From positions 1 through 64,000 of the forward strand of contig NZ_WUQY01000013.1 of assembly GCF_009829085.1 (NCBI RefSeq): a DNA stretch of 64,000 nt, given 5' to 3'. Every line of letters begins with the position of its first letter. The first letter of the stretch is position 1. The notes below the pieces were generated by a model. That model was not told the DNA's origin and did no database searches. It saw only the letters and a program-made list of their open reading frames with translations. Origin of the DNA: Sphingobacterium bovisgrunnientis. Lineage in GTDB: Bacteria > Bacteroidota > Bacteroidia > Sphingobacteriales > Sphingobacteriaceae. Shown here one piece after another: positions 5,697 through 42,920 of the stretch. The translations under genes were made by a program, and so were the position numbers.

Positions 5697-6608
5697 CTAG
5701 CTATTATATTTTTTTAACTGTTCTTCGATTTTGTGCAAAGATACAACAAAAGGTGTAGGCTTATAACTTAATATTTGTTCAGCTTTATTTAATATAAATC
5801 CAGTTTTGCGGGGCCTGTTTGTAGCCTGACCAATTTCAGCCGCTTTTATGGGGGTGATGAGCGTTTTATCATAGTTCCACGTGTCAGCTAATTTTTCTAC
5901 AGCTTCTAAGACACTCATCATTTCATTGCCTGAAATGTGAAAAATTCCAGAGGCGTTTTTTTGCATAGCTAAATAACAAGCATCCGCTAAATCATCGACC
6001 AAAGTCGGCATGCGCCATTGATCCGAAACTACCTTTATACTTGCTCCATTTTCCAATTGCTTCTTTGCCCAAAGCACGAGATTGCTTCGGTTTTTGTCTG
6101 GAATAGCTCCGTAAACCAAAATTGTACGAAGTATAGCTGTTTCCTCATTGTTAGCTAAAATAGCTTTTTCTGCGTCAATTTTACTTTGCCCGTACTCATT
6201 TGTTGCACTTACTGCGTCTGTTTCTTTGTATGGGCCATTTTTTCCATCAAAGACAAAATCAGTAGACAGAAAAGTATAATGAATAGATAGTTTTTTACAA
6301 ATCTCTGCTAACTTTTTCGGTAATTCGACATTGATTTTTTGCGCCAATTCAGGTTGTTGTTCACACACTTCGACACTAGTCAATGCTGCGGTGTGCAAAA
6401 TATGTGTAGGCTGAAAATTTATGATAGTTTTTTCCAAAGCTTCAAAATCCAACAGATCCAACTGTTGAAATGTATCGGCATTCAAATATGGATTTCTATT
6501 TTCAGATTTTGAAATACCTAAGACAGCTTTTATTTCGGAATATTCAGAAAGTTTCTCGGAAAATTTTTGTCCCAAAAATCCATTTGAACCAGTTAGTAGT
6601 ACGCGCAT
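5697..6608 (-). CDS. RmlD-like NAD(P)-dependent SDR (sugar-nucleotide reductase type)
   Basis: An extended short-chain dehydrogenase of the dTDP-4-dehydrorhamnose reductase family. The 303-residue protein begins MRVLLTGSNGFLGQ (Rossmann GxxGxxG) and has the YGQSK catalytic Tyr/Lys pair. ATG 6606-6608 is chosen: an upstream TTG at 6623 would add five residues before the Rossmann strand and overlap the M28 gene. No other rhamnose pathway genes are nearby, so it may act on another sugar nucleotide or in tRNA/methionine-related roles known for RmlD homologues. It abuts the thioesterase gene. Confidence 0.82.
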   Translation of the reverse strand: MRVLLTGSNGFLGQKFSEKLSEYSEIKAVLGISKSENRNPYLNADTFQQLDLLDFEALEKTIINFQPTHILHTAALTSVEVCEQQPELAQKINVELPKKLAEICKKLSIHYTFLSTDFVFDGKNGPYKETDAVSATNEYGQSKIDAEKAILANNEETAILRTILVYGAIPDKNRSNLVLWAKKQLENGASIKVVSDQWRMPTLVDDLADACYLAMQKNASGIFHISGNEMMSVLEAVEKLADTWNYDKTLITPIKAAEIGQATNRPRKTGFILNKAEQILSYKPTPFVVSLHKIEEQLKKYNS

Positions 6609-6610
6609 AT

Positions 6611-7552
6611 TTAATTTGTCCAAATAAAATCCATTTTGTCTTGCAACATAGAGTTATCAATTACTTTTATTTCCAATTCTAATATTGCCTTCAAAGCTTC
6701 ATAATCAATTTTGTCTGCATCATCGGTGGCTTTATGGTAATCATCATGACCGCCAGTGTGAAAAAATAGTACCGGAATATTTTTCTTATAAAAAGAAGTT
6801 TGATCCGAGCCACCATTTCCGTCCTTACTTTTGTTGAATTTGATGCTGCTGGTGACACCATCAAATATAGCTGGAAACTTAGAACTCGTGCCATAACCAA
6901 TCACTGCTAATCCATTATCTGGATTGTAGCGGCCGATCATATCCATATTGAGCATCCAGTGGATTTTTTCCAATGGGAGAGTGGGGTTTTCAGTCCAATA
7001 TCTTGACCCAACTAGCCCTAATTCCTCAGCTGAGAGGGCGATAAATAGAATATTAAATTTCTCTTTAACCTTGTTGGTGCTGTAATATCTTGCTAATTCC
7101 AATAATCCAGCTACACCAGAAGCATTATCATCCGCACCATTGTGAATATGTCCAATATGAGAAGTATCTCGAGTTCCACCAAAATCACCGTGTCCAAGGT
7201 GATCGTAATGTGCACCTACAACAATGGTGTAAGGCGCTTCATTGTCCAAAAAGCCAATAATATTTTCAGCTTGTCGAATACTATCTGGCACAATGACACG
7301 ACGAACTTTAGCTTCGAAGGCTTGTCTATATCCTTTTGTTCCCAGCGGTCTCAACTTGTATTTTTTGAATTCTTTCTCAATATATTTAGCAGATTTTGCT
7401 AGTTCTTTAGAACCTGTAGCGCGCCCTTTCATTTTGTCGTCTGCCAAAAAATAGATGTGTTTTTTCAATCTATTGATGTCAATTTCTTGTGCGCTAAGTT
7501 TAAAACTTAATAAGAATAAGAGTGCTGTGAAGAAGAAAAAATGTCTTTTCAT
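6611..7552 (-). CDS. M28 family zinc aminopeptidase, secreted
   Basis: A zinc exopeptidase cleaving N-terminal residues from peptides outside the cytoplasm. The 313-residue protein has a signal peptide (hydrophobic 4-21, cleavage after SAQ) and the M28 metal ligand set: GAHYDHLG, NGADDNASG, the catalytic EE in SAEELGLVG, NMDMIGR and the final HDDYH motif. It is the first gene of a minus-strand run with the SDR and thioesterase; two bases separate its stop from the SDR start. A second, longer M28 enzyme lies at 34276-35862. Confidence 0.92.
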   Translation of the reverse strand: MKRHFFFFTALLFLLSFKLSAQEIDINRLKKHIYFLADDKMKGRATGSKELAKSAKYIEKEFKKYKLRPLGTKGYRQAFEAKVRRVIVPDSIRQAENIIGFLDNEAPYTIVVGAHYDHLGHGDFGGTRDTSHIGHIHNGADDNASGVAGLLELARYYSTNKVKEKFNILFIALSAEELGLVGSRYWTENPTLPLEKIHWMLNMDMIGRYNPDNGLAVIGYGTSSKFPAIFDGVTSSIKFNKSKDGNGGSDQTSFYKKNIPVLFFHTGGHDDYHKATDDADKIDYEALKAILELEIKVIDNSMLQDKMDFIWTN

Positions 7553-26110: not shown

Positions 26111-26518
26111 ATGATTATAAATTTGGAGGAATTAAGAAAAGAAATCAAATACAAAACAGCTCGATCTTCTGGTGCTGGAGGACAGAATGTGAATAAAGTG
26201 GAAACAAAAGTGAGTTTGATTTGGGATTTTGAACATTCAATTCTTCTTAATGATGTACAACGTTCTAAGGTTCGCTCAGCGTTTAAAAATAGACTACAAT
26301 CGGAGGGATTAATTCAAATTGATTCTTCGGAAAGTCGTAGTCAGTTAGCAAACAAGGAAATCGCTTTTGATAAACTTGTTTTTCTTATTCAAGAATCACT
26401 AAAACCCAGCAAAAGAAGAATTCCTACCAAAGTGCCTCGTTCCAAAATATTAGCTAGACTCGATCGTAAATCTAAAAATGCAGAGAAAAAATCCAATCGT
26501 AGGTGGCGAATGGATTAA
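26111..26518 (+). CDS. arfB: Alternative ribosome-rescue factor ArfB-like, GGQ domain
   Basis: A codon-independent peptidyl-tRNA hydrolase that frees stalled ribosomes. The 135-residue protein has one release-factor domain with the catalytic GAGGQNVNK motif (22-30) and the basic C-terminal tail needed to enter the mRNA channel (about 100-135, ending KKSNRRWRMD). The size matches ArfB/YaeJ and is too short for RF1 or RF2. The start lies 4 nt after a TTTG promoter end. The IS element begins 65 bp downstream. Confidence 0.92.
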   Translation: MIINLEELRKEIKYKTARSSGAGGQNVNKVETKVSLIWDFEHSILLNDVQRSKVRSAFKNRLQSEGLIQIDSSESRSQLANKEIAFDKLVFLIQESLKPSKRRIPTKVPRSKILARLDRKSKNAEKKSNRRWRMD

Positions 26519-26527
26519 TAGTCTAAC

Positions 26528-26583
26528 ACGAATTGTATTATTATAATACGAGTTAATAAAAATTATTTTAACTAAAATTTTTT
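26528..26583. repeat. Left copy of the 56-bp direct repeat flanking the IS
   Basis: This 56-bp AT-rich sequence is repeated at 28188-28243 with one difference (A at 26559, T at 28219). It touches the left tip of the IS exactly. It contains the perfect 15-bp palindrome GTATTATTATAATAC (26535-26549). It is read as a long target-site duplication. Confidence 0.95.
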
Positions 26584-28187
26584 CCTGACTTGTGCCTTTT
26601 AGTGCGGCAGATTTAATTTCCGTATTAAATCCTCCACTATAGGCATCATTTTGGCTCTTATTCTCATTTCCTTGTTAGTGATTTGACTAAACATTCTAGC
26701 GTCGGTCACTTTTTTGAGTTCAGTTACAAACTTTTTGATAGAAACATTGGTGGTTAATTCAATGTGCTTTGAAATGACTAATGCCTTAAAACAGATTAGT
26801 AAATGTAATTTTATTGGCTCTTCCTTGAAATGAAAAATGGGCCTTGTTTTGAGGTCATTTTTAGAGATTCTGAAGGCTTGCTCAATTTTATATAAATCCT
26901 GGTATCTACTAATTACGGTCTCATTATCTACAATAGACTCCTCTAGGTTTGTGTAATAACCTTTAATTCCAAGAAGAACCTTTGTTCGATTGATCAATTC
27001 ATTATTCAATGCAGGTTCTTTGTTATCGGTTTTCAAGAATTTTACTTTCTTGATTTTACCAGGCTCTTTCAGTAAGATTTCTGCACGCTGTATTTGCTTT
27101 TCCATTTCATACTTATCCTTTCGATATCTTGTATTTGAGAAACTGCAAATCAAATATCCCTTTTCTGTCTGTAGTCGAATAGTGTTTCCATCCTCTCGGA
27201 CTAAACTACTATGAATCCGTTGGAAGAGCTCATTCCCAATATTGCCCAATCGGGCACCAACAATGTAGTTAACACCTGCCTTTCTAAGCTCTTCCACATT
27301 ATCATTACTGATCATAGCAGCGTCCGCTACTATTGTAAACTGTTTAATACTGTGCTTTTGGATGAAAGCCTTAACCACGGGAAGAATGGTATGCCCCTCA
27401 AAGGTATTTCCTGGAAATACCTCATAACCTACAGGAAAGCCTTCTGGAGTAACCATTAAGGCCACTAAGATTTGTGGCTGTAGGGATTTATTATCTTTTG
27501 AAAACCCTTGCTTTCGAAATTCATCAGCATCAAATGTCTCAAAATACAATGTAGTTACATCGTAAAACAATAGTTCGAAATTGAAATCATAATTCTCCTT
27601 GAGAAATTTAATTACGATTTGTTCGACCTCTTCCTTTAAGCTTAACCAATTTCGGGCTGATTTGTAGAAAGATTTCCGGCTATGCTTGATACCAAAACAG
27701 GTTTCAAGTAATTCTATAGAACGTAATTTTGAGGAAGGATCCAGTATGCGCATAATGACCAGATCTAAAAGAAATTGTTTATTTATCCCCGATAATCCCA
27801 CTTTTATAATAATTGCTGAGAGAATCTCGTACAAATAGGTATAGTAGACTCCTAAGAAATCGGCTTTATCAAGGTAAAGTAGGTTGTCAAATTTTGTTTC
27901 TATTTCAAAAGGGAGTGTTGGTGCGTAATTGTCAATGAAATCTTGGGCTACCACTAGCATGGTTTCAAGTTCGGAATCGGTCTTAGCAGAACCAATATGT
28001 TTATAAATAACCCTTTTGCGGTTTAAATAATAAATCACCTGAACAGCTCTTGCTTCAGAACCTGTTTTTATTGTACGAATTCGCAACATAGAACACCCTT
28101 AGTGCGACAAATTACGATTTTTTATTAAATAAAAAACTGATTATCAAATGAATATATTTTCTTAGTTCTACAAGGGGACAAGTCAGG
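26584..28187 (-). mobile_element. IS1634-type insertion sequence, 1604 bp, complete
   Basis: Tips are set by the direct-repeat borders and by terminal inverted repeats that share CCTGACTTGT (26584-26593 and the complement of 28178-28187) with weaker matching inward. One intact transposase gene fills it. A 15-nt subterminal motif, TTAGTGCG-CA-ATT with two differences, occurs in the same orientation near both ends (26599-26613 and 28099-28113) and may bind transposase. The 56-bp flanking duplication fits the long, variable duplications known for IS1634. Confidence 0.92.
26599..28089 (-). CDS. IS1634 family DDE transposase
   Basis: A 496-residue transposase with the family's N-terminal segment (RAVQVIYYLNRKRVIYKHIG), the first DDE strand FELLFYDVTTLYFE (near 175), the second near QFTIVADAAMISNDNVEELR (about 250), and the Glu helix after the YQDLYKIEQAFRISKNDLKTRP segment (about 410). 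This is the classic DDE spread with a long beta insertion. The frame is intact and starts at ATG, so the element may be active. Only this copy is visible in the window. Confidence 0.93.
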   Translation of the reverse strand: MLRIRTIKTGSEARAVQVIYYLNRKRVIYKHIGSAKTDSELETMLVVAQDFIDNYAPTLPFEIETKFDNLLYLDKADFLGVYYTYLYEILSAIIIKVGLSGINKQFLLDLVIMRILDPSSKLRSIELLETCFGIKHSRKSFYKSARNWLSLKEEVEQIVIKFLKENYDFNFELLFYDVTTLYFETFDADEFRKQGFSKDNKSLQPQILVALMVTPEGFPVGYEVFPGNTFEGHTILPVVKAFIQKHSIKQFTIVADAAMISNDNVEELRKAGVNYIVGARLGNIGNELFQRIHSSLVREDGNTIRLQTEKGYLICSFSNTRYRKDKYEMEKQIQRAEILLKEPGKIKKVKFLKTDNKEPALNNELINRTKVLLGIKGYYTNLEESIVDNETVISRYQDLYKIEQAFRISKNDLKTRPIFHFKEEPIKLHLLICFKALVISKHIELTTNVSIKKFVTELKKVTDARMFSQITNKEMRIRAKMMPIVEDLIRKLNLPH

Positions 28188-28243
28188 ACGAATTGTATTA
28201 TTATAATACGAGTTAATATAAATTATTTTAACTAAAATTTTTT
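28188..28243. repeat. Right copy of the 56-bp direct repeat flanking the IS
   Basis: It matches 26528-26583 at 55 of 56 positions and begins at the base after the IS tip. Its last bases run into the likely -33 element of the encapsulin promoter. Confidence 0.95.
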
Positions 28244-28325: not shown

Positions 28326-29243
28326 ATGAGTACAAAAGAAAATCAAACCGCCTTAGGCGATGTAGCAGCGAGACACCTAGCCATTGCTACCCGTACCGCA
28401 CCTCAATTAGAAAGTATCACACCGAGATGGATTACCTTATTGTTACAATGGTTGCCTGTAGAATCTGGTGTTTTCCGATTAAATCGTGTTGTAGGCGAAG
28501 AAGGAATCCAAGTAGATTGTTCACGTCGTGATGAAAGTGTATTGCCCCACACTTTTGTGGATTACGATGAGAATCCCAGAGAATACAATTTGAGTGCAGT
28601 AAATACTTTAATTGATATTCACACACGTGTATCGGATTTGTATAGTAAGCCTTACAATCAGATTAGTGAACAATTACGTCTAGCTATTGAGAAAATCAAA
28701 GAAAGACAAGAAAGTGAATTAATTAACAATGCAGATTATGGATTGTTGAATAGTGTTGCAAAGAAACAAGTTATCAAGACGCGTTTAGGACCTCCAACAC
28801 CAGACGATTTGGATGAGTTATTAACAAAAGTGTGGAAAAATCCTAGTTTTTTCTTGTTACATCCACAAGCTATTGCTGCTTTTGGTAGAGAATGTACACG
28901 TAAAGGTGTTCCGCCTCCGACAGTTTCATTATTTGGTACGCAATTCATTACCTGGAGAGGAATTCCTCTTATTCCATCCGATAAAGTGCCAATTGTGAAA
29001 GGAAAAACAAAAATCATTCTGGTAAGAACAGGAGAAAGTAAACAAGGCGTCGTAGGACTATATCAGCCTAATCTTCCTGGTGAGCAAACTCCAGGTTTAT
29101 CGGTAAAATTCACAGGGATCAACGACAAAGCTATTGCTTCGTATTTGATTTCGTTATACTGCTCATTGGTTGTATTGGTAGATGATGCATTGGCTGTATT
29201 GGAAGATGTGGATGTTACAAATTATCACGAATACAAGTATTAA
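28326..29243 (+). CDS. Family 2A encapsulin shell protein (SrpI-like)
   Basis: A self-assembling HK97-fold protein forming a protein nanocompartment. The 305-residue sequence matches family 2A shells (such as Synechococcus SrpI) over its whole length: ALGDVAARHLAIATRTAPQL near the N-terminus, LQWLPVESGVFRLNRV, SAVNTLIDIHTRVSDLYS, ERQESELINNADYGLLN, FGRECTRKGVPPPTVSLFG, ITWRGIPLIPSDKVP and DDALAVLEDVDVTNYHEY at the end. It has no cyclic-nucleotide-binding domain, which separates it from family 2B. In this family the native cargo is a cysteine desulfurase, and one follows 58 bp downstream. The shell frame is intact. Confidence 0.96.
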   Translation: MSTKENQTALGDVAARHLAIATRTAPQLESITPRWITLLLQWLPVESGVFRLNRVVGEEGIQVDCSRRDESVLPHTFVDYDENPREYNLSAVNTLIDIHTRVSDLYSKPYNQISEQLRLAIEKIKERQESELINNADYGLLNSVAKKQVIKTRLGPPTPDDLDELLTKVWKNPSFFLLHPQAIAAFGRECTRKGVPPPTVSLFGTQFITWRGIPLIPSDKVPIVKGKTKIILVRTGESKQGVVGLYQPNLPGEQTPGLSVKFTGINDKAIASYLISLYCSLVVLVDDALAVLEDVDVTNYHEYKY

Positions 29244-29301
29244 TAATTCTTGATTTTTATGCAAGATTAATAATGCAGTATTCACATTTTAAACTAATTA
29301 C

Positions 29302-31103
29302 ATGTCACAATTCAATAATATTCCTTCTGACAAGGAGTTAGAATCGGTTGTCAATCACTTATTCAAAGGATTATCGGGTTTTAATCAACTTGCGCATGTG
29401 AGTCATTCGGATTCTGGTGTCTTTCAACGTAAAGTGACTACGGATTACGATCAAATCAGTGCGCATGATAAAGAATTTAATATAGCGAATCCGCAGACGA
29501 GTCTAAAAGATCCTTTACTTCGAGATGAAGGTAAGTTCCCATTAGCACAAGCTGGGGATGGGAGTTCTCCACATTTCAAACAAGAAGGTAGAGATGCTTT
29601 AAATTCCTATGCAAATCCGTCGCAATCGGCTGGTTTGGAAGATATATCCGAGATATTCGCTGATTCTTACGCCTATCAATCGAATCTTGGTGCGAATTCG
29701 GCATCCTAAGAGGATTTGATTCCGAAAGATATCTTTGCGTTTAATAATCCAATTTCTTATCAACCTGAATACGGAGATGACATTCCTTTTGCAAAGGAAA
29801 CCTATACAACATTCAATGCTGCTATTAGTCCTTTAGGAAGTCCATATTCATTTGTAGGAAATGATTTACTCCAAGATCGCAGTTCCAATTTTGATGTGTA
29901 TGCTATCCGCAAGGATTTTCCGATTTTGAGTGAATACGTAAATGGTCGTCCGTTGGTTTGGTTTGACAATGCAGCGACGACACAGAAGCCACAAGTGGTG
30001 ATTGATCGTTTGGCTTATTTTTACCAACACGAAAATTCGAATATTCTCCGGGCGGCACATGAATTAGCTGCGCGTGCTACGGATGCCTATGAGAAAGCTC
30101 GTGAAACGATAAAATCTTTTATCAACGCAAAGTCTGTAAACGAAATCATCTTTACACGTGGAACAACGGAATCTATTAATCTTATAGCCAATAGCTGGGG
30201 TGCTGAAAATCTCAAAGAAGGTGATGAAATTATTATTTCGAATCTGGAGCATCACGCGAATATCGTGCCATGGCAATTGTTAAGTCAGAAAAATGGCTTC
30301 AAGATTAAGGTTATTCCAGTAAACGATGCTGGTGAATTGCTTATCGATGAATATAAAAAACTATTCACGGATAAAACGAAACTTGTATCTTTTACCCACG
30401 TCAGTAATGCGTTAGGCACGGTAACACCTGCGAAGCAAATCATTGAGATAGCGCATTCAGCTGGTGCTAAAGTGTTGCTGGATGGTGCACAATCTATTCG
30501 CATATCAAAGTAGATGTTCAAGATTTGAATCCAGATTTCTTTGTTTTCTCTGGACACAAAATTTTTGGACCTACTGGAATAGGTGCGGTTTATGGAAAAG
30601 AAGAATTGCTTAATCAAACGCAACCTTACCAAGGTGGTGGAAATATGATTCAGGATGTTACTTTCGAAAAGACAATTTTTCACCCTGCACCCAATCGCTT
30701 TGAAGCAGGAACTGGTAATATTGCGGATGCAGTAGGTTTAGCAGCAGCGCTGGATTATGTCCAAAAAATCGGAATTGATCGCATTGCAAAATACGAACAT
30801 GAACTTTTGGATTATGCGACTAGTTTATTTAAACAAATAACGAAAGTGAAATTGATAGGGACAGCGAAAGATAAAGCTAGCGTCATGTCTTTTACCATAG
30901 ATGGATTTAGCAATGAAGAAGTGGGTAAGGTATTGAACGATCATGGTATAGCTGTGCGTACGGGACACCATTGTGCGCAACCAATTTTGCGTCGATTAGG
31001 CTTTGAAAATTCTGTTCGTCCTTCCTTTGCATTCTATAATACATTTGCGGAGATTGATTTATTAGCAGATGTGGTTCGAAAATTAGCTTCGAGTAAATTC
31101 TAA
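29302..31103 (+). pseudogene. Encapsulin cargo cysteine desulfurase, interrupted (stop codon plus frameshift)
   Basis: A SufS-like PLP cysteine desulfurase with an N-terminal region of about 190 residues that is low in complexity and probably directs it into the shell. The reading frame is broken twice. TAA at 29707-29709 falls in frame inside the N-terminal region. At 30499-30500 one base is missing between SI and HIKVDVQ; a CCG Pro codon is expected from SufS relatives. Mending both gives about 600 residues. Catalytic parts survive: FDNAATTQKP, THVSNALGT, DGAQSI, the PLP lysine in FSGHK (30558-30560) and the catalytic Cys in RTGHHC (30972-30974). Unless the lesions are sequencing errors, no full enzyme is made. 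Confidence 0.9.
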
Positions 31104-31171: not shown

Positions 31172-31174
31172 GCG

Positions 31175-31214
31175 AAAACTAAAAAAATAGTTGTAAAACT
31201 AAAAATATAGTTTT
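31175..31214. promoter_or_regulatory. Tandem BlaI/MecI-type operator dyads
   Basis: Two adjacent 20-bp dyads with the same layout: 31175-31194 (AAAACTA, 6-bp spacer, TAGTTGT) and 31195-31214 (AAAACTA, 6-bp spacer, TAGTTTT). The second is perfect. They lie 60-100 bp upstream of the BlaI-type gene, the normal place for self-repression. Confidence 0.7.
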
Positions 31215-31275
31215 AGATTAGTTTTAGTAATCGATTATAGGCAGACGTGCCAATTTAATTTTTATTAATAGAGTT

Positions 31276-31644
31276 ATGGACGAAATCAAAGAACTTACAA
31301 AGGCAGAAGAGCAAATTATGCATGAATTGTGGGAGATGGGAGGAGGCTTCGTAAAAGAAGTGATCGAACGTCTACCTGAGCCAAAGCCTGCATATAATAC
31401 TGTTTCTACAATAATTCGTATTCTCGAGACCAAGGGTTTTGTGAATCACGAGGCTTATGGTAAGAGTCATAAATATATTCCAACGATCAGCAAAGAAGAC
31501 TACAAGAAAGTCGTAGCAGACAAATTGTTGAGTGGTTATTTTGAAAATTCACCCAAACAGATGCTTTCTTTCTTTTTGGAAGAGAACAAATTGGATGTCA
31601 AAGATCTGGACGATATTTTGAACATTATCAACAAGCACAAATAA
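31276..31644 (+). CDS. BlaI/MecI/CopY family transcriptional repressor
   Basis: A 122-residue winged-helix repressor. The DNA-binding domain (1-75) includes LTKAEEQIMHELWEMGGGFVKEVIERL and the recognition segment AYNTVSTIIRILETKGFVNHE. The C-terminal helices mediate dimerisation. Members of this family are inactivated by cleavage triggered by a membrane M56 protease, and such a gene follows 28 bp downstream. It probably represses its own operon through the dyads at 31175-31214. Confidence 0.94.
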   Translation: MDEIKELTKAEEQIMHELWEMGGGFVKEVIERLPEPKPAYNTVSTIIRILETKGFVNHEAYGKSHKYIPTISKEDYKKVVADKLLSGYFENSPKQMLSFFLEENKLDVKDLDDILNIINKHK

Positions 31645-31672
31645 AATTATAAACTACTTATAAACTTACGTT

Positions 31673-33373
31673 ATGGTAATTTATCTGCTATTAGTCAATA
31701 TAGCTGTCGTCCTAAGTTATAGCTTATACTATTTCAGCTTTCGTAAATTAACTTTTTTCCAATGGAACAGAGTTTATTTACTCAGCACAGCATTTTTCGC
31801 ATTACTGATTCCGATTGGATTATTTATAGATTTATCCACATTTTTTGAGGATGATATTATTATTCCTATGGTCAATGTACACGAGTTTATTGATATACCA
31901 ATTGTCCTCTATGCACAGCAAAATTCTTCCTTGTACTTGGTAGATGTTCTAAAATGGATTTATATCGTTGGTTTGATTGCAAGTGTATCAATCATATTTT
32001 GGCGACTGTGGAATGTGCGCAAAATGTTTCAAGCTGATGCACCTTTTTTGGGTTTCTCCTTCTTCAATAAAATGTTTTTAGGTAAAGAAGTCAATTCCTA
32101 TAAAAGCATTGAACGACACGAACAAATTCATATCGAGCTAGGACACAGTTATGATGTACTATTTATGGAGTTGTTCAAGGCTTTGAACTGGTTTAATCCT
32201 GTGGTGTATCATATGAGCAAGGAAATCAAATTTCAGCATGAATGTATAGCGGATGAATTGAGTTCGGAAGATAAAGTAGCTTATGCCGAGTTATTAGTGG
32301 CTCATGCGCTCAAAGTGCCACAAAATGTATTGGTGCATGAGTTTTCCAATCAATCGTTTTTAAAGAAAAGAATCATGATGTTATTTAAGAATAAATCATC
32401 AAACAATAAACGCTTTTTGTATTTAGGCATAATTCCAGCTGTATTGGTTGTTGGAATATCAACTGTAGTTTTTAACACCTCCAGAGCAAAAACTGTTGTA
32501 GCAAAGGTTGAATCAAAAATGGAAGATGTGAAGTTGCCAACATCGGATATGTCAGTGCAGATTGAAAATTCTACTGTATTTAAGCAGTCACATCTAGAAT
32601 CTGTAAATCCATTAGTTCAAATTATGGCTAATGATACGATAAAAGTAGGCGGTAATGAAATTTTTATCGAAACAGAGATAAATCCGGAGCCTCCAGAAAG
32701 TATTGATGAATTTCGTAAGTGGATAGGTGAAAATTATCAATACCCACAAGCTGCTATTGATGCTGGTGTCAAAGGAACTATCAGAACAAATTTTGTAGTC
32801 GAAAAAGATGGCTCGTTGTCGGATATTAAAATTGTAGAAGATATAGGTCATGGAACTGGTGAAGCTGCTGTGGAGCTGCTAAAAAAATCCCCAAAATGGA
32901 AACCTGCTATTCAAAATGGTCGTAAAGTACGCTATGAATTCACCTTGCCAATACGGTTAGATTTGACGGATATGGATGGTAATTCAGAGAGTGCGCAAGA
33001 TACAATTCAAGGTAAGTTTGGTGGAAAAATAACAAAAATAGTTGAAGGAAATGAAACGTTTTCTCAAGTAGAGATTCAACCAGAGCCTCCTGGAGGATTA
33101 AATGCTTATCGTAAATGGTTAGGTGATAATTATAAATATCCCCAAGCTGCAATTGATGCCGAAGTAAAGGGGACAGTTCAAGTTACTTTTGTTGTTGAAA
33201 AAGATGGCGCACTTAGTGATTTAAAAGTGGTAAGAGATTTAGGACATGGTACAGGAAATGCAGCGATTGCTGTTTTAAAAACTTCTAAGAGATGGTCACC
33301 TGGAATTCAAAATGGTAAATCTGTACGTGTTGCATATTCTTTACCTATACGTCTTGACCTTACTAGAATGTAA
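31673..33373 (+). CDS. M56 (BlaR1-type) membrane peptidase with two TonB C-terminal domains
   Basis: The likely sensor/antirepressor for the BlaI-type protein. The 566-residue protein has membrane helices at about 1-20, 36-54, 93-112 and 250-270, and the zinc motif HEQIH (149-153) with FNPVVYHMSKEIKFQHECIADELS. After the last helix come two tandem TonB C-terminal domains (about 330-425 and 470-565), each with EPP...YPQAAIDA-VKGT, FVVEKDG-LSD, GHGTG and LPIRLDL. It has no penicillin-binding sensor domain, so the signal is not expected to be a beta-lactam. The doubled domain looks like an internal duplication. Confidence 0.92.
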   Translation: MVIYLLLVNIAVVLSYSLYYFSFRKLTFFQWNRVYLLSTAFFALLIPIGLFIDLSTFFEDDIIIPMVNVHEFIDIPIVLYAQQNSSLYLVDVLKWIYIVGLIASVSIIFWRLWNVRKMFQADAPFLGFSFFNKMFLGKEVNSYKSIERHEQIHIELGHSYDVLFMELFKALNWFNPVVYHMSKEIKFQHECIADELSSEDKVAYAELLVAHALKVPQNVLVHEFSNQSFLKKRIMMLFKNKSSNNKRFLYLGIIPAVLVVGISTVVFNTSRAKTVVAKVESKMEDVKLPTSDMSVQIENSTVFKQSHLESVNPLVQIMANDTIKVGGNEIFIETEINPEPPESIDEFRKWIGENYQYPQAAIDAGVKGTIRTNFVVEKDGSLSDIKIVEDIGHGTGEAAVELLKKSPKWKPAIQNGRKVRYEFTLPIRLDLTDMDGNSESAQDTIQGKFGGKITKIVEGNETFSQVEIQPEPPGGLNAYRKWLGDNYKYPQAAIDAEVKGTVQVTFVVEKDGALSDLKVVRDLGHGTGNAAIAVLKTSKRWSPGIQNGKSVRVAYSLPIRLDLTRM

Positions 33374-42108: not shown

Positions 42109-42771
42109 TTATTCATTATCTCCATAATATTTTACCCCCAATTCTATTTTCTCACGACCATTAGCCATACGCCATTTGTTGGTGTCACGAAGGGAATATG
42201 CACAACCACAGTACTCTTGCATATAAAATCGTTCACGTTTACTAATTTCCAACATACGTGCACCTCCACCTTTTTTACGCCAATTTAATGTCCAATAATC
42301 CATGTCTGGATGACGAGATGCGGCGCGAACACCACAATCGTTTATCTGATCCATGTTCTTCCACCGCGAAATCCCTAAAGAGCTGGATATGACATCAAAT
42401 CCATTTTCGGCAGCATATTCAGCTGTTTTTTCAAATCGCATATCGAAGCACATTGTGCATCTTATTCCTTTTTCAGGTTCATTTTCCATGCCTTTTGCTA
42501 ACTCAAACCAATGATCTACATCATAGTCAGCATCTATGAAAGGTATGTTGTGTTTCTCTGCAAAGCGAATATTTTCTTCTTTGCGAATGTCATATTCTTT
42601 GCGTGGATGAATATTTGGATTGTAAAAATAAATTGTAAACTCAATGTCGGAAGCAATTAGTGCCTCCATTACCTCTCCAGCACATGGTGCACAGCAAGAA
42701 TGTAATAACAATTTCTTGCCTTGGTTTGGTAAAGTGAGTTTTTCTCTTACAAATTCTTTTTTCGTTTCCAT
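42109..42771 (-). CDS. queH: Epoxyqueuosine reductase QueH
   Basis: It performs the last step of queuosine tRNA modification, reducing epoxyqueuosine, as a non-homologous substitute for QueG. The 220-residue protein has the Cys set of the family: [29 protein letters not shown] and [15 protein letters not shown] 42769-42771 is used; a TTG eight codons upstream is less likely. TTTG ends 4 nt before the ATG on this strand, resembling the leaderless starts elsewhere in the window. Confidence 0.93.
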
Positions 42772-42920
42772 ATGACAAATGGTAATCTTCTGCAATTTTA
42801 CGCAAATCTAATGGCTTTTGAAAGTTATTTCATTTTTGTAACGTTTAGATTGCTATTTTCGTTTAAATACTTACAGACAAAAATGTATACATTTGTAATC
42901 TAGTAATCGATTCAATTTTT

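Follow-up and report, generated by a model that had tools for sequence, protein, structure and literature searches.

The window analysed here, a stretch of 64,000 nucleotides from Sphingobacterium bovisgrunnientis, raises the question of what becomes of an encapsulin shell when the gene of its cargo is broken. The initial annotation of this locus described an intact SrpI-like family 2A shell gene, a SufS-like cysteine desulfurase directly downstream as its cargo, and two lesions in the cargo frame. It went on to propose that an empty, fragment-filled or re-used shell would be a new device. We have compared the locus with operons in related species, with database proteins and with family 2A genomes from two surveys, and have examined how far the shell and cargo genes of this group of species are still under constraint.

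The shell gene and its interrupted cargo

The features of the operon and its borders are summarized in Table 1. In profile searches the shell passes the family 2A cut-off, scoring 518.5 bits against NF041162 (cut-off 380) in a clean frame of 305 residues, and it also matches PF19307. Residues 5-305 align with Synechococcus SrpI (PDB 6x8m) at E=3e-146. At residues that are at least 98% conserved in 120 reference shells, the window shell has zero deviations. If expressed, it would probably still assemble; an icosahedral shell is predicted because its sequence is similar to 6x8m. By sequence, PDB entries 8t6r, 9ksl, 8wol and 8won belong to the same shell family as the window, the comparison being of the shells alone; we take the organisms of these entries to be Acinetobacter and mycobacteria, and their function to be that of a sulfur store.

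The cargo gene (29302-31103) adjoins the shell gene, its remnant beginning 58 bases past the shell stop, and consists of three pieces (29302-29709, 29716-30513 and 30525-31103). The desulfurase pieces match NF041166, the model for family 2A cargo desulfurases, with 420.6 and 396.6 bits, neither over the cut-off of 800, and the domain matches of the two halves meet near 30500. The window cargo is not one open frame over that cut-off. A family match was sought for the N-terminal 135-residue fragment and none was found. The descriptive claims of the initial annotation are borne out by these results: the shell is intact and SrpI-like, the gene directly downstream is a SufS-like cysteine desulfurase, and its frame has two lesions, an in-frame TAA and a one-base frame change near 30505. 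In addition, the window cargo carries H249L at a position that is H in 118 of 118 reference cargos, so that the invariant residues of the catalytic domain are not all kept. On this reading of the sequence, the desulfurase compartment of the window probably does not work as such now. A separate full-length SufS-like gene is found elsewhere in the same genome (C38:17137-18342), and iron-sulfur supply would come from it; a serine acetyltransferase-like gene is found on contig C47.

Table 1. Features of the family 2A encapsulin operon and its borders, in window coordinates
Feature	Position	Strand	Remarks
Release-factor-domain (ArfB-like) gene, left border of operon site	26111..26518	+	PF00472
IS1634-family insertion sequence between arfB-like gene and shell	26584..28187	-	transposase 26599-28089, NF033559 301.8 bits
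Family 2A encapsulin shell gene	28326..29243	+	305 aa, uninterrupted frame
N-terminal loading-region fragment of cargo	29302..29709	+	open frame, 135 aa, ended by lesion 1
Lesion 1, in-frame TAA in cargo gene	29707..29709	+	open here in S. cavernae and S. litopenaei
Rest of loading region and first half of cysteine desulfurase domain	29710..30513	+	NF041166 positions 218-427; ends at shifted stop
Lesion 2, one-base frame change (near 30505)	30498..30513	+	exact place set by alignment
Second half of cysteine desulfurase domain, other frame	30525..31103	+	NF041166 positions 438-623
BlaI-like repressor gene, right border of operon site	31276..31644	+	PF03965

The system is like SrpI/CyD of S. elongatus (6x8m; PMC8049743, drawn on here in part) in that the shells can be aligned over residues 5-305 and a SufS-like cargo with a long N-terminal region adjoins the shell gene. 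It differs in its cargo: the frame of the gene is broken twice in the window, an invariant residue is substituted, and the loading motif has V for a conserved A.

Lesion 1 is seen in the window sequence only. The database protein P0002 has the same shifted ending as lesion 2, has no stop at lesion 1 and differs elsewhere; lesion 2 is supported as real because P0002 carries the same frame change independently. As a baseline, 53 other window ORFs were picked by hand from the 67 of at least 100 residues, and 51 of them could be compared with S. cavernae. A frame-changing gap past the first 12 columns was found in none of these 51 (gaps in the outermost columns were not counted). Two baseline ORFs were flagged in the comparison with S. 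cavernae, 5697-6623 for a gap at column 11 and 42109-42795 for one aligned stop codon.

The operon in related species and across the family

The same operon is found in S. cavernae (G035, L015) and S. litopenaei (G002, L016), with 97% and 87% DNA identity to the window, respectively, in the same gene order and at the same site between the arfB-like and blaI-like genes. The S. cavernae cargo reads through at the sites of both window lesions but shifts frame by one base further on, which leaves frames of 464 and 149 residues. In S. litopenaei the cargo has a stop in the loading region and a two-base frame change in the enzyme domain, and the shell has a stop near codon 40. The cargo is broken in all three of the operon-holding genomes of this group, by five different lesions in three non-overlapping sets. 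Window-S. litopenaei identity is 99% in 30576-30723 and 90-97% from about 31172 (31172-32522), as against 63-92% in most other operon stretches; in sequence terms this pattern suggests recent exchange or recombination between the species.

The genes next after the window operon are the blaI-like repressor and then an M56/TonB-domain gene. The latter (M56 peptidase/TonB C-terminal, 31673-33373) has repeated TonB-like ends and differs in length, with 656 residues in S. cavernae and 682 in S. litopenaei. In five shell-less relatives (G249, G255, G059, G324 and G045) the arfB-like and blaI-like genes are adjacent. In a tree of the neighbouring bshA-like gene, S. litopenaei, G249, G059 and the window-cavernae pair form one group (support 96/96) without resolved order among them; G255 lies outside it, and the three species with the operon do not come out as a clade. 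G249 and G059 are species of the same group with no operon at the site, and no working copy is present among the five genomes of the group examined. Either the operon entered the site once and was then lost without a scar from G249 and G059, or it was passed between lineages.

The IS1634-family element of the window has 17-nt inverted ends and 56-nt flanking direct repeats (98% alike), within 26528-28243, and its transposase is the sole copy found in the genome. The part of PMC2266710 used here reports that two members of this family have long repeats of variable size, 8-514 bp. The element was rejected as the cause of the decay on two grounds: the intergenic sequence between arfB and shell still lies beside the shell, short of roughly ten bases, and S. 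cavernae and S. litopenaei, which are broken as well, lack the element.

In a survey of the family, the shell model was matched in 47 of 399 genomes, in 46 of them over the cut-off. In 42 of the 47, the shell has next to it a cargo that exceeds the cut-off and whose match contains no stop (open frames 548-780 residues). The other five are the three genomes of the window group together with G244 and G437, neither of which is testable: the G244 shell is a fragment in a genome that is 68% complete, and the G437 cargo leaves the contig after 185 residues. Six more family 2A genomes, belonging to other families, were examined, and all six have an intact cargo. Outside the group, all 48 testable family 2A genomes thus have an uninterrupted cargo next to the shell; inside it, 0 of 3 do. 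A phylum-wide survey matched the shell model in 62 of 395 genomes, namely that of the window, the six intact ones from other families and 55 from one other family, which were omitted from the cargo survey. Some shells of these 55 pass the 2A cut-off, but with positions 49-295 alone, and the others fall short of it; most have frames of about 490 residues, and they are probably family 2B-like.

Intact family 2A operons occur in six other Sphingobacterium genomes: G028 (L035), G026 (L036), G057 (L037), S. corticibacterium (G036; L038, L019), S. chungjuense (G243; L075, L017) and S. corticibacter (G208; L076, L018). Their shells are 84-87% identical to that of the window and the shell-then-cargo order is the same. 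Unlike the window operon, they have an uninterrupted cargo and no bshA-, arfB- or blaI-like neighbours in the 10-11 kb around the operon, and in G026, G028 and G036 a serine acetyltransferase gene follows the cargo. In L018 it is a DUF4395 gene that does so. Only 24 of 43 intact family loci have a serine acetyltransferase gene directly behind the cargo (G307, where it is about 2 kb away, is excluded). Lacking this gene is thus not enough to predict decay, and a missing operon partner was rejected as the cause. G363 holds two copies of the family 2A operon, one of which, L077 (G363:C1:5905000-5911500), has an in-frame shell stop, an intact cargo and a serine acetyltransferase-like gene. A search of the literature for loss of encapsulin operons or cargo, Sphingobacterium included, found no paper, judging by titles and the beginnings of abstracts.

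Constraint on the two genes

A database protein search placed three close cargo relatives, P0001, P0002 and P0003, among the best 120 matches listed. P0001, with 600 residues and 22 member sequences, is the one open-frame cargo of the group. It carries the substitutions R258C and G491R, each at a residue shared by 117 of 118 references, and R573P, at a residue shared by all 118; R573 lines up with what is presumably the substrate-binding arginine of SufS. P0002 (404 residues) has R258G, and P0003 (402 residues, without the loading region) keeps all invariant catalytic residues. Q228K in the S. cavernae cargo and S400L in that of S. litopenaei likewise replace residues on which all 118 references agree.

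For the shell, the comparison covered nine sequences of the group and the 120 references; P0163 is S. litopenaei again. Seven of the nine deviate at residues that are at least 98% conserved (S. cavernae, S. litopenaei, P0121, P0122, P0123, P0125 and P0160, the last of which starts late), and the window and P0124 are clean. Counting all alleles, 8 of 19 shell variants fall on conserved residues, compared with 12 of 147 in six control clusters (Fisher P 0.0004) and a chance expectation of 0.49. Leaving out P0124 gives 8 of 13, and restricting the count to genomes gives 2 of 4; 8 of 19 is the fairer figure because the exclusion of P0124 was decided after the list had been seen. For the cargo, with S. 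litopenaei and lesion-side codons left out, the count is 6 of 13, compared with 14 of 297 in six control clusters and 0.46 by chance. Of the variants at conserved sites, six of the eight in the shell and four of the six in the cargo stem from database proteins, which may hold errors; the controls are drawn mostly from the same database. Overall, both genes look unconstrained in the group at present, because their variants fall on conserved residues at about the chance rate.

The window and all 120 references have G at shell residue 194 (28905-28907), where S. cavernae and S. litopenaei both have V and P0121 has D. This pattern may reflect repeated change, shared ancestry or exchange, and the variants of S. 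cavernae and S. litopenaei may not be independent because both are V.

Between the window and S. cavernae, the shell differs by 12 synonymous and 2 non-synonymous changes (dN/dS 0.046) and the cargo by 30 and 13 (dN/dS 0.115), compared with a background median of 0.033 over 49 other genes, at which level genome-wide decay was rejected. Between the window and S. litopenaei, dN/dS is 0.012 for the shell and 0.038 for the enzyme domain of the cargo. Because these ratios are low for both genes, the system appears to have been kept by selection for most of that time and to have decayed recently. Only four derived changes lie on the window branch of the shell, which makes its intactness weak evidence for selection.

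Decay of the compartment and its alternatives

It is quite likely that related Sphingobacterium species have recently been losing the entire system, shell and cargo, in parallel, and that the window operon, a family 2A encapsulin with a doubly broken cargo, is one case of this. Selection on the system would have ceased recently in several lineages, with random damage coming after. So far, two of the three genomes would have lost a reading frame only in the cargo gene, which is the longer one, and the intact shell of the window would be one that has not yet been hit. Were it expressed, this shell would probably assemble with nothing inside or with small amounts of the 135-residue N-terminal fragment.

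The same decay might have had another driver, in which selection favours loss of the system and disabling mutations spread by it and not by drift. This reading overlaps the preceding one and is unlikely. Loss of the desulfurase would be advantageous in the group, and mutations disabling the cargo, then the shell, would have risen under selection, separately and at roughly the same time, in three species or more. Consistent with this, all three species with the operon have broken it recently and independently, P0002 has the frame change of the window in a diverged background, and G249 and G059 lack the operon; however, plain relaxation would account for these numbers too. If loss were indeed advantageous, the group would be a natural experiment on the host cost of a sulfur nanocompartment.

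Judging from the window alone, the undamaged shell, without deviations at conserved residues, and the near-background dN/dS between window and S. cavernae (0.046 for the shell) would make continued selection on the shell possible, so that it would work empty or with another cargo since the desulfurase was lost. The rest of the group makes a retained shell quite improbable. The S. litopenaei shell has a stop, and conserved residues are changed in S. cavernae and in five of the group's six database shells. Searching the genome of the window with the loading region returned only the locus itself and one chance-level match (E 0.2), that is, no other protein with a similar loading region that might point to re-use of the shell, and the next genes encode a BlaI-like repressor and an M56/TonB-domain protein. 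The new device put forward in the initial annotation is not upheld: two related species break the cargo independently, S. litopenaei has broken its shell as well, and the variants of both proteins fall on conserved residues at about the chance rate.

That the 135-residue fragment fills the shell and is now a functional product is very improbable, although there are points in its favour. In S. elongatus, according to the part of PMC8049743 used here, the first 100 residues of the loading region brought sfGFP into the shell, less well than all 225, and because 100 residues suffice for some loading there, traces of the fragment might enter the window shell. The fragment also keeps a counterpart, ELESVVNHLF, of the cargo motif LARLANEFFS published for the N-terminal domain in the same part of that source. 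However, the residue before N in the motif, A in 88 of 88 pattern-fitting references (31 of 119 references did not fit the pattern), is V in the window. The change is common to the window, S. cavernae, P0001 and P0002, and S. litopenaei retains A; as the sole founding lesion it was rejected, since the window-S. cavernae dN/dS of the cargo is not near 1 and S. litopenaei has A. A stand-alone homologue of the fragment was sought among proteins of about 74-236 residues and none of 16 candidates scored, in a library that does not list the window's own fragment either and may lack such pieces. The N-terminal cargo frames also vary by species, with 135 residues in the window, 464 in S. cavernae and 187 in S. 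litopenaei.

Sequencing or assembly errors, conceivable in a draft assembly of 264 contigs (3.98 Mb) in which lesion 1 is peculiar to the window, are hardly credible as the source of the lesions, given the same reading of lesion 2 in P0002, the different breaks in two other genomes and the lack of any similar break when 51 other window ORFs were compared with S. cavernae.

Under recent parallel loss of the system, finding an undamaged shell gene next to a disrupted cargo gene would not by itself imply that the shell has been put to new use. More notable here is the loss of both parts in one group of species. To our knowledge, it is poorly known when family 2A encapsulins are needed. A group in which shell and cargo decay beside intact congeners would be a setting where the compartment is dispensable, and the decaying and intact operons of these congeners would provide a comparison set for finding its purpose.
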